From: Candidatus Fermentibacterales bacterium
GTDB taxonomy: Bacteria > Fermentibacterota > Fermentibacteria > Fermentibacterales > JAFGKQ01
Length of the DNA: 6,170 nt
Direction of reading: 5' to 3'
Assembly: GCA_016928495.1 (NCBI GenBank)
Contig: JAFGKQ010000243.1
Span: 1-6,170, forward strand
How positions within the stretch are numbered: position 1 is the stretch's first letter; every line of letters starts with the position of its first letter. A model generated the notes under the pieces. It ran no database searches, was not told the DNA's origin, and was given only the letters and a program-made list of their open reading frames with translations. Positions 2,754 through 6,170 of the stretch are shown piece after piece. Made by a program: the position numbers and the translations under genes.

Positions 2754-3770
2754 ATGAAGAGCTTTGGCCTGGATCTCCCGGACAGGCTTCGACTCGCGAA
2801 CCTCCCCACTCCGATACGCGAGCTGCACGGCCTCTCGAGGCAGCTGCCCGTCAGGGTCTTCGTCAAGCGCGATGACCTCACCGGGAGCGCAAACTCCGGC
2901 AACAAGATACGCAAACTGGAGTTCGTGCTGAAGGAGGCGATGGATCAGGGCGCCCACACCATCGTCACCGCCGGCGCCATGCAATCCAACCACTGTCGCG
3001 CCACCGCGGTGGCCTGCAGACAGGTCGGGCTGGACCCCTACCTGATACTCAGGAGGAACATCGAGCCGGAGCCAACGGGAAACCTGTTCCTGGACCTCCT
3101 CATGGGTGCCCGGACCAGGATGGTCGAGCCCCGGGAGTACGCCGAGAGACTCCCCGAAATCGCCGGGGAGATCGTCGAAGAAGAGAACGCCGCGGGCCGG
3201 AAGGCGGTCTTCGTGCCCGTCGGGGCCTCGACCTCCACTGGCTGCCTCGGGTACCTCTGCTGCGCGAGCGAGATAGCCGACTGGGAACGAGACACGGGAG
3301 TGTCTTTCGACAGGATCTACTTTGCCGCAGGCTCCGGAGGGACCTCCGCGGGCCTGCTGCTGGGCAAGGCTGCCTTCGGCCTCCGAGCCGCTCTCAGGGG
3401 CGTCAACGTGGGCGAGCCGCACGCGGAGTTCGTGGAGCGGATTCTCGCCATTGCGCGCGAGGCCGTCTCGAGGTTCGGGACCGGCGACTGGACACCGGAG
3501 CAGCCGGAGGTGGTCGAGGGGTACTACGGCGAGGGCTACGCTCATGCCGACGAGAGCGTAACGTCGTGCATACGCCGGCTGGCAAGATCGGACGGCCTGG
3601 TTCTGGATCCGGTCTATACCGGGAAGGCCATGCTCGCCCTTGTCGAGGAAGAGAAGAGGATGTCGCCCGGAAACGTCCTCTTCATCCATACCGGGGGCAT
3701 ATTCGGCCTGCTCGGCGCGAGGCCCGACCTCCTGCTCGGCGACTCGATCGAGGCACTCCGGCGGGGCTAG
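2754..3770 (+). CDS. dcyD: D-cysteine desulfhydrase / ACC deaminase-family PLP enzyme
   Basis: A 338-residue cytosolic enzyme of the fold-type II (tryptophan synthase beta) PLP group. D-cysteine desulfhydrase splits D-cysteine into pyruvate, sulfide and ammonia. It starts with a family-typical LANLPTPIREL segment and FVKRDDLTGS. The PLP-binding lysine is in SGNKIRKLEF (Lys51), and the substrate-side motif TAGAMQSNH carries Ser78, Asn79 and His80. The phosphate-binding loop AAGSGGTSAG is at 191-200, and LDPVYTGKAM near the end carries Tyr288. IHTGG at 311-315 is also typical. Thr289 follows that Tyr, where true ACC deaminases have Glu, so desulfhydrase or a related D-amino acid lyase is more likely than ACC deaminase. 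Length is close to the enteric homologue (about 328). It follows the DUF6982-like gene after 19 bp and ends inside a 4-bp overlap with hisD. Family is certain; the exact substrate is inferred. Confidence 0.9.
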   Translation: MKSFGLDLPDRLRLANLPTPIRELHGLSRQLPVRVFVKRDDLTGSANSGNKIRKLEFVLKEAMDQGAHTIVTAGAMQSNHCRATAVACRQVGLDPYLILRRNIEPEPTGNLFLDLLMGARTRMVEPREYAERLPEIAGEIVEEENAAGRKAVFVPVGASTSTGCLGYLCCASEIADWERDTGVSFDRIYFAAGSGGTSAGLLLGKAAFGLRAALRGVNVGEPHAEFVERILAIAREAVSRFGTGDWTPEQPEVVEGYYGEGYAHADESVTSCIRRLARSDGLVLDPVYTGKAMLALVEEEKRMSPGNVLFIHTGGIFGLLGARPDLLLGDSIEALRRG

Positions 3771-5050
3771 ACCGATTCGCCATCGAGCCGTGCCTCGGCG
3801 GCCCGGGCATGCCATTCCAGGCCCTCCATCCTGGCGAATGCTGCGACATCGCGAGCCGCTTCTCCTCCTCCTTCCGCGGCCAGGCGAACCCAACCCTGGA
3901 CCCTCAGAAACGACATCGGGCTGAGGGAGCCGCTGAACCGCGCGGCGGTCCCGGTCGGCAGGGTGTGGTCGGGCCCGGCCATGTAGTCACCGAACGCCAC
4001 GCACGACCCGGCCCCGATGAACACCGCTCCATAGTCTTCGAGCTTCTCGAGAGCCAGGTCTTCGCCTCTGGAGAGGTGCAGCTCGAGGTGCTCGGGGGCG
4101 AGCCTGTTGCAGGCAGCTATGCAGTCCTCCAGGCTGTCCAGCACCAGTGCGGATACCCGCTCCGACAGCCCGGTCTCGCCCGGCCTACGGGGGATGTCGC
4201 CCGTCAGCAGGAGCAGCTCCGACTCGACCGCCCGCGCAAGTGCCGGGCTGTCGGTAAGCAGCCAGCAGCGGGCATCGGGATCGTGCTCCGCCTGCGCCAG
4301 CAGGTCCAGCGCAACGGGACGGGGAGACGCCAGGCAATCCGCGATCACGGCGACCTCGCTGGGCCCGGCGATCATGTCCACTCCGACAAGGCCGTAGAGC
4401 TGCCTCTTGGCCTCGGTGAAGTACCTGTTGCCGGGCCCCGCGATCATGTCGACCCTGGGGAACCCGCCGGACCCGAAAGTCATCGCGGCGACGGCCTGCG
4501 CCCCCCCGAGGGAGCTTATGGTGTCGGCGCCCGCCCGGCGGGCAGCGTAGAGGACTTCCGCGGCCTCGCTGGGTGAGTAGACGTGCACTTCGCGAACGCC
4601 GGCAGCTCTGGCCGGGATGCATGTCATCAGGGCGCTGGAGGGCAGAGGATGCCTTCCCCCCGGAACGTAGCAGCCGACCCGTCTCACCGGCTGGAAGCGC
4701 AGGCCTGCCTGGAAGCCGGGAGAGCTGCACTCGTAGTCGTGGAAGCGGTCCATCATGCCCCGGAAGAACCTCTCCAGGTTCTCCGCAGCAGCGTCGATGA
4801 TCCTCTGGCTCTCGCGATCCAGGCTGGCTATCCTGCTGTCGACGACCGGGTCCCGAAGCCCGAGTGTCACCGGCTCGGGGTCGCCGAGGCGTCTGGCGAC
4901 CGCCCGCAGGGCCTCCAGTCCCCCCTCCCGCACCTCCTCCACTATGGAGGCAACCGCACTGGCAACACCATCACGGAAAGGGCGCCCGAGAGCGCTTGCC
5001 TCGTGCTCCTCCACCATCCCGAGCGCTTCGGCTCCCTCCGCAGTCCTCAT
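3767..5050 (-). CDS. hisD: Histidinol dehydrogenase
   Basis: A full-length, 427-residue HisD (the E. coli enzyme has 434). It oxidises L-histidinol to histidinal and then to L-histidine with two NAD+, the last two steps of histidine synthesis, as a cytosolic zinc dimer. Signature stretches are VGCYVPGGRHPLPSSALM (126-142), GGAQAVAAM (182-190), IAGPGNRYFTEAKRQ (203-217) and DMIAGPSEVAVIAD (225-238). The expected zinc ligands are all present: Gln253 and His256 (LLAQAEHDPDA), Asp361 (AGPDHTLPTG) and His414 (EGLEWHARAAE). The catalytic Glu320-His321 pair is in RLAPEHLELH. The ATG at 5050 overlaps the TGA of the upstream HisA-IE fusion as ATGA and has AAGGAGG 5 nt before it, so translational coupling is likely. 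It appears to be the last gene of the operon, since the next gene is convergent. No terminator is visible after it. Confidence 0.97.
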   Translation of the reverse strand: MRTAEGAEALGMVEEHEASALGRPFRDGVASAVASIVEEVREGGLEALRAVARRLGDPEPVTLGLRDPVVDSRIASLDRESQRIIDAAAENLERFFRGMMDRFHDYECSSPGFQAGLRFQPVRRVGCYVPGGRHPLPSSALMTCIPARAAGVREVHVYSPSEAAEVLYAARRAGADTISSLGGAQAVAAMTFGSGGFPRVDMIAGPGNRYFTEAKRQLYGLVGVDMIAGPSEVAVIADCLASPRPVALDLLAQAEHDPDARCWLLTDSPALARAVESELLLLTGDIPRRPGETGLSERVSALVLDSLEDCIAACNRLAPEHLELHLSRGEDLALEKLEDYGAVFIGAGSCVAFGDYMAGPDHTLPTGTAARFSGSLSPMSFLRVQGWVRLAAEGGGEAARDVAAFARMEGLEWHARAAEARLDGESV

Positions 5051-6170
5051 GGCCTCCTCCTTCCGGCAAGCTCGGACGTCACGTCCCGCCAGGCCACGCC
5101 CTCTCTCGAGGCCAGAACGGACAGGAAGTAGAGGAGGTCCGCGATCTCCCAGACCAGCTCTCCTCCGGAGGAGGCCTCGACCACCTCGCCTGCCTCCTCG
5201 AGTATCTTGGAGCGGAGCAGGGCCGGATCGGAGCCGAGTCTCGCAGTGAGCGAGCCGGTCGCTCCGGATGCCATCCTCTCCGAGAGTGTCTCCATGAGGA
5301 GGGGAATCCCGAACTTCCTGCTCCCGAAGCAGCTGTAGCTGCCGGTGTGACAGGCCGAGCCCGACTGGTCGACCGTGAAGAGCAGGGCGTCCCGATCGCA
5401 GTCGGCACGAACCCGCAGAAGACGCTGAGTACAGCCCGAGGTGCTGCCCTTGCGCCAGAGCATCCGTCGGGACCTGCTGTAGTAGACACCGCTGCCGCTC
5501 CTGAGCGCTTCCAGGAGAGACTCCCGGGTGCTGTAGGCGAGCATGAGAACCTGTCCGTCCCGATCCATGACGATCGTGGGCATGGGGCACGTCCTCTCGA
5601 AGTCGAGGCACTCCACTACAGCCTCCGCCGGGTCCAGTCTACCGGAGTAGAGGGACATCCCCACCTGCGCGTCGGCACCCATGGCCGCCAGTCCGGCTAT
5701 CTCGGACTCGTGGCGTATTCCGCCGGCGAAGGTCACCGAAAGGCTTGTGAGCCCGGCAATGCGCCCCGCCTCGTCCAGGTTGATCCCCCTCATGCCCCCC
5801 TCGTCTGCGACGAAGGTACAGAGCAGCGAACCAGCGCTCCCTTCCACCTGCCGGAGGCGCTCCTCGAGAGTCTCCCCTGTCCTTCTCCTCCAGCCGAGGT
5901 CCAGAACCTCTCCGGCATCGTGATCCAGGGCCACCTGAACGCACTCCCGAGGCAGCCTCCGGACGAATGACTCCCGGGCGCAGGTGCCGATGATCACCCT
6001 GCGCGCCCCTGCCCGGAGAAGCTCTCTGGCATGCTGCTCGCTCCTGATGCCGCCTCCCGCCCTCACGTCTGCCACCCTGCAGATGCTCCTGACGAGATCC
6101 CTGTTCTCGCCCTCACCCAGCGCCGCATCGAGGTCTATCACCGCGATCTCGCCGAATCGTCCGAGCTCTC
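5047..6170 (-). CDS. hisA/hisIE: HisA-HisI-HisE fusion (5' end outside window)
   Basis: The frame is open to the window edge (…GRFGEIAVIDLDAALGEG…); about 374 residues are visible. Numbering here counts the GTG codon at 6141 as Val1. HisA (ProFAR isomerase, TIM barrel) runs to about residue 178, with phosphate-binding AGGGIRS (29-35), RRVIIGT and FAGGIRHESEI. The first barrel strand with its catalytic Asp lies outside. HisI (phosphoribosyl-AMP cyclohydrolase) covers about 178-275: VLMLAY, YYSRSRRMLWRKGSTSG, and DCDRD. Zinc Cys248, Cys264 and Cys271 are spaced 16 and 7, as in the archaeal enzyme. HisE (phosphoribosyl-ATP pyrophosphohydrolase) covers about 280-360 with KILEEAGEVVEA and EIADLLYFL. 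All three visible domains look intact, so three consecutive steps share one chain. The GTG at 6141 is not the true start; it codes an internal Val of the second HisA strand. The stop overlaps the hisD start. Confidence 0.93.
   Translation of the reverse strand, partial: ELGRFGEIAVIDLDAALGEGENRDLVRSICRVADVRAGGGIRSEQHARELLRAGARRVIIGTCARESFVRRLPRECVQVALDHDAGEVLDLGWRRRTGETLEERLRQVEGSAGSLLCTFVADEGGMRGINLDEAGRIAGLTSLSVTFAGGIRHESEIAGLAAMGADAQVGMSLYSGRLDPAEAVVECLDFERTCPMPTIVMDRDGQVLMLAYSTRESLLEALRSGSGVYYSRSRRMLWRKGSTSGCTQRLLRVRADCDRDALLFTVDQSGSACHTGSYSCFGSRKFGIPLLMETLSERMASGATGSLTARLGSDPALLRSKILEEAGEVVEASSGGELVWEIADLLYFLSVLASREGVAWRDVTSELAGRRRP
5056..5062 (-). promoter_or_regulatory. Strong Shine-Dalgarno of hisD inside the HisE coding end
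   Basis: The minus strand reads AAGGAGG, 5 nt before the hisD ATG. It is made by three consecutive AGG arginine codons (R-R-R-P-stop) at the end of the HisA-IE fusion. Together with the ATGA stop/start overlap it implies coupled translation and matched amounts of the two proteins. Confidence 0.7.

Follow-up and report, generated by a model that had tools for sequence, protein, structure and literature searches.

Does a reading frame that runs through HisA, HisI and HisE encode one working protein, and where would such a protein belong among the known fusions of the histidine pathway? The question is raised by the end of a 6,170-nucleotide stretch of DNA from a Candidatus Fermentibacterales bacterium (the window), in which an earlier note, made from the letters alone, had claimed the body of HisA followed by HisI and HisE in one frame. 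The frame is as claimed: 373 codons on the minus strand carry, from N- to C-terminus, HisA, HisI and HisE, the enzymes of pathway steps 4, 3 and 2, and all three Pfam domains score above their curated cut-offs (Table 1). The chain accordingly covers steps 2-4, as the note had also held. About 40 residues of the HisA N-terminus are absent from the window copy because the contig stops at 6170.

Table 1. Features of the fusion gene and of the adjoining hisD in the window.
Feature	Position	Strand	Evidence
HisA-HisI-HisE fusion frame	6168-5050, then stop TGA 5047-5049	minus	373 codons, 5' end open
HisA domain, (beta-alpha)8 barrel	5599..6168	minus	Pfam PF00977 (His_biosynth), residues 6-178, 104.7 bits (cut-off 23.6), 6.5e-30
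HisA phosphate motifs GGGIR and AGGIR	6057-6043 and 5727-5713	minus	
HisA beta5 Asp motif ALDHD	5931-5917	minus	
HisA beta6 motif CTFVADEG	5820-5797	minus	
HisA-HisI junction DFERTCPMPTIV	5569..5604	minus	translation, coordinates, family alignment
HisI domain (PRA-CH)	5326..5544	minus	Pfam PF01502, residues 209-281, 102.3 bits, 1.3e-29
HisI metal motif DCDRD	5403-5389	minus	
HisI ACHTG/SCFG Cys/His residues	5355-5323	minus	
HisE domain (PRA-PH)	5062..5298	minus	Pfam PF01503, residues 291-369, 50.5 bits, 2.8e-13
HisE metal site EExxE...ExxD: ILEEAGEVVE and WEIADLLY	5205-5176 and 5151-5128	minus	
Fusion stop TGA overlapping hisD start ATG, as ATGA	5047-5049 and 5048-5050	minus	
hisD, histidinol dehydrogenase	3767..5050	minus	Pfam PF00815, 1.6e-117; TIGR00069, 386.8 bits (cut-off 243.8)

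The His_biosynth match spans profile positions 44-227 of 228, the first ~43 positions lying off the contig, and PRA-CH is followed by PRA-PH with the order and the intact metal sites of HisIE. The two equivalog models score below their cut-offs in the window copy: TIGR00007 (HisA) gives 106.5 bits vs 228.95, with the first ~43 positions missing, and NF002747 (HisIE) gives 152.1 bits vs 187. N-terminal truncation together with divergence may explain both scores. The junction is very short, as had been proposed, with the HisA part ending near residue 188 and HisI starting at about residue 196.

The next gene after the fusion is hisD, which is separate and unfused here, and the fusion would be expressed from a his operon, probably translationally coupled to hisD. 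The order (G-C-B-)H-F-[A-I-E]-D is recurrent; hisG-C-B-H-F-[A-I-E]-D was found, in full or in part, in Melainabacteria, KSB1, Eremiobacterota, Methanofastidiosia and the G045 phylum. In two contigs of Aminicenantes (L075:1-1296 and L082:1-1176) HisH and HisF are themselves fused and adjoin the HisA-HisIE fusion and hisD, a layout that parallels eukaryotic HIS7 plus HIS4. On the other side of hisD in the window, a PLP enzyme of the D-cysteine desulfhydrase/ACC deaminase family (2754-3770, plus strand) lies tail to tail with hisD, overlapping it by a few bases.

The HisA-HisI-HisE fusion is a real family that extends across many phyla. Profile models and a count of genomes had been suggested as a check, and beyond the three domains above cut-off a scan of 84,980 species genomes yielded 59 further contigs with the same chain, each in a single collinear frame whose match to the query starts at residue 1-4 and ends at residue 366-373. 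Their titles name Fermentibacteria, Eremiobacterota, Melainabacteria/Gastranaerophilales, KSB1, Calditrichaeota, Aminicenantes, Spirochaetes, Methanofastidiosia and others. The nearest relative, L025 (Candidatus Fermentibacteria), is 56% identical; frame length and identity are no different for the match in G005, which belongs to the order of the window organism. Among 42 searched genomes of that order, four carry the fusion (G000, G005, G013, G041), G002 has separate hisA and hisIE, and the remainder gave no match. A frameshift or stop within HisI, due to sequencing error or decay, breaks the G041 copy (L009:1240-2606) into two frames; this MAG is 71% complete. A broad sample of 385 genomes gave a HisI match in 224, and 15 of the best 30 matches, a lower bound for the sample, are intact fusions. 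The earlier note knew of no standard HisA-HisIE fusion; the fusion itself stands, but it is no isolated oddity, given this widespread family and precedents in Acanthamoeba and archaeal MAGs.

For the eukaryotic side of the comparison, provisional reconstructions of HIS4 from S. cerevisiae (799 aa) and Komagataella (842 aa) stood in for database entries, and every HIS4 result below is conditional on their accuracy. The HisIE tree has a branch with 100/100 support that separates all 39 standalone HisIE from the fusions and the reconstructed HIS4. One fusion origin followed by transfer or loss suffices for this split, and the family is apparently of single origin. A HisA tree sets the fusions, together with seven standalone HisA of the G045 phylum (L098-L104, from G187, G166, G213, G212, G216, G168 and G167), apart from 22 ordinary HisA (supports 97 and 83); the seven may represent the unfused state or later fissions. 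Yeast HIS6, likewise a reconstructed sequence, falls with this fusion clade of HisA, but its branch is very long.

It is very probable that the fusion is a trifunctional enzyme for three consecutive histidine steps, in a widespread HisA-HisIE family from which HIS4 also appears to descend. The C-terminal HisE domain would hydrolyse PR-ATP to PR-AMP, and the middle HisI domain would open the ring, producing ProFAR for the N-terminal HisA barrel to isomerise to PRFAR. The PRFAR would pass to HisF-HisH, encoded just upstream in relatives. Across 44 members the HisA beta5 Asp, beta6 Thr, active-site Trp and glycine motifs are invariant, as are, in L025 numbering, HisI columns D291, C292, D293 and D295 (motif DCDxD), the HisI Cys/His residues C308, H309 and C315, and HisE columns E359, E360, E363, E376 and D379. 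The beta1 Asp (D7) is present in 51/51 fusions that reach it and lies off the contig in the window copy, in which the beta5 Asp (D129) is present. The full-length Fermentibacteria protein L025, modelled with AlphaFold (pLDDT 92.5, pTM 0.83), matched, by Foldseek, Salmonella HisA with ProFAR (5a5w; E 2.5e-17, TMt 0.84) and also the HisIE/HISN2 structures 6j2l and 7bgn. The three activities, and a working role for Glu at the Asp176 position (E. coli numbering), are inferred.

A search for a separate hisA or hisI in the window's own assembled genome (81% complete), another check that had been proposed, found neither; there is one PRA-CH match and no other real HisA. Each of 16 intact fusion genomes tested has exactly one PRA-CH match, which lies inside the fusion. 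HisF and the fusion HisA account for every strong PF00977 match in 14 of these genomes; G392 and G136 have an additional HisA-family match. In G392 (C80:16143-16793), which also has the fusion, this second HisA-like match belongs to a frame of 432 residues that has no PRA-CH match. As the only source of HisI in 16 genomes and of HisA in 14, the fusion is under conditions that argue strongly that all its parts work.

One could suspect that a misassembly or frameshift error has joined two adjacent genes, hisA and hisIE, since the contig ends inside the gene and belongs to a draft MAG of 337 contigs. An error near 5610 had been named as what would overturn the reading, but the same junction occurs in 59 independent contigs and in near-complete genomes, the single-contig G136 among them, which rules out an assembly join for the family and makes an artefact exceedingly improbable. 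The reading of the HisA part meets a more specific objection. The position of Asp176 in beta6 is Glu in the window copy, in 52/52 fusions and in the 7/7 near standalone HisA, vs Asp in 22/22 ordinary HisA and 12/12 HisF, and D176 is the catalytic aspartate of Salmonella HisA (PMC9088769). This substitution leads us to describe the fusion HisA as a divergent HisA clade, and it could alter HisA activity. Taken further, the domain might not be a working ProFAR isomerase or might have another role, the protein being HisIE with a structural barrel, as HIS4 may be. We consider both variants very unlikely, because the beta1 and beta5 Asp, the beta6 Thr, the active-site Trp and the phosphate motifs are conserved, 14 of 16 fusion genomes have no other HisA, the Glu-bearing standalone HisA are located in his operons, and yeast HIS6 (reconstructed sequence), a known HisA, likewise has Glu at this position.

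The fusion HisA might instead double as TrpF, like actinobacterial PriA, and no TrpF was found in the window genome, G013, G643, G392, G649 or G445. The window genome is only 81% complete, however, and the other 14 genomes tested, 11 of them fusion-bearing, have a separate TrpF, so a HisA-TrpF dual enzyme is not supported as a general rule and such a role for this HisA is very improbable. We retain the reading of a trifunctional histidine enzyme.

Fungi use a separate HisA, HIS6. The N-terminal 160-220 residues of fungal HIS4 have been described as of unknown function and without detectable homologues, and no HIS4-like protein was found in prokaryotes (Fani et al. 2007, PMC1963479). That paper's account agrees with the domain limits of the reconstructed yeast HIS4. 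Peptides of this sequence, sought in papers, gave no match, and no fungal HIS4 was found in viral contigs and plasmids. When the HisIE part of the reconstructed yeast HIS4 was compared with the 385 genomes, the best 13 matches were all fusions, the top standalone HisIE being 14th. Reconstructed HIS4 nests inside the fusion part of the HisIE tree, with 18 fusion sequences around it (100/99), and the AU test rejected a topology that left it outside the fusion clade (p-AU 0.003). The reconstructed Komagataella HIS4 aligns through the HisA part of the fusion L092 (blastp, residues 23-383, 5e-67) and has the junction TTDRPDGL in common with it. Fungal HIS4 appears to be the closest eukaryotic relative of the bacterial fusion.

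The N-terminus of reconstructed HIS4 on its own resembles HisA weakly but collinearly: it exceeded shuffles with z=6.5 (Komagataella) and 4.9 (yeast), and was matched by only 2/300 and 1/300 segments of unrelated His enzymes, respectively. By HMM both sequences hit the same HisA segment at the expected place (E 0.003-0.005, for a single comparison), and global profile alignment with HisA gave P 0.01-0.03. Because the HMM alone reaches only these E-values, the case for a relict HisA rests jointly on the HisIE tree, collinearity and the pairwise z-scores, and we regard a relict HisA at the HIS4 N-terminus as likely but unproved. Transfer of a whole A-IE-D unit into fungi is not supported: the HisD proteins most similar to that of HIS4 (up to 54% identity) occur in genomes whose HisIE is ordinary, and the HIS4 HisD thus did not come from fusion operons. 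On balance we favour an origin of HIS4 from a bacterial HisA-HisI-HisE fusion, with the N-terminus a decayed HisA barrel and the Glu-bearing HisA clade common to the fusions and eukaryotic HIS6, as a reasonably probable scenario.

A literature search, with most subscription papers outside its scope, found no paper on a bacterial HisA-HisI-HisE family, which is apparently undescribed so far. It brings a widely spread and apparently undescribed bacterial architecture to one of the most studied pathways, offers a natural system for channelling tests through three successive steps and draws attention to a HisA clade in which a catalytic residue is altered. The most valuable lead is the evolutionary link to HIS4, which opens both the unexplained HIS4 N-terminus and the source of the eukaryotic histidine fusions to direct test.

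Among known systems, bifunctional HisIE (E. coli HisI, plant HISN2) has the same HisI-HisE order, metal and zinc motifs and a similar fold, but is without the N-terminal HisA barrel and falls across the 100/100 branch of the HisIE tree. The standalone HisA of the G045 phylum share the clade and Glu signature of the fusion but are unfused, with a separate HisI frame of ~150-164 aa in the three genomes checked. A 2024 survey noted HisA/F-HisIE fusions in four archaeal MAGs (cluster 787.1; PMC11237513) with apparently the same domain set, in one sentence confined to archaea that does not describe the family, its bacterial spread or the HIS4 link. Acanthamoeba has one heptafunctional protein of 1,682 residues with activities listed as HisHF, HisA, HisI, HisE, HisD, HisG (PMC6029752); compared by this description, it combines HisA, HisI and HisE in a single chain, and their listing follows the order of the bacterial operon, but it joins seven activities in a eukaryotic chain, unlike the three-domain bacterial fusion. 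Fungal HIS4 has HisIE of the same clade and an N-terminal region of similar length, but its HisD is fused at the C-terminus, whereas hisD is a separate gene beside the bacterial fusion, and its N-terminus has lost recognisable HisA catalytic residues.
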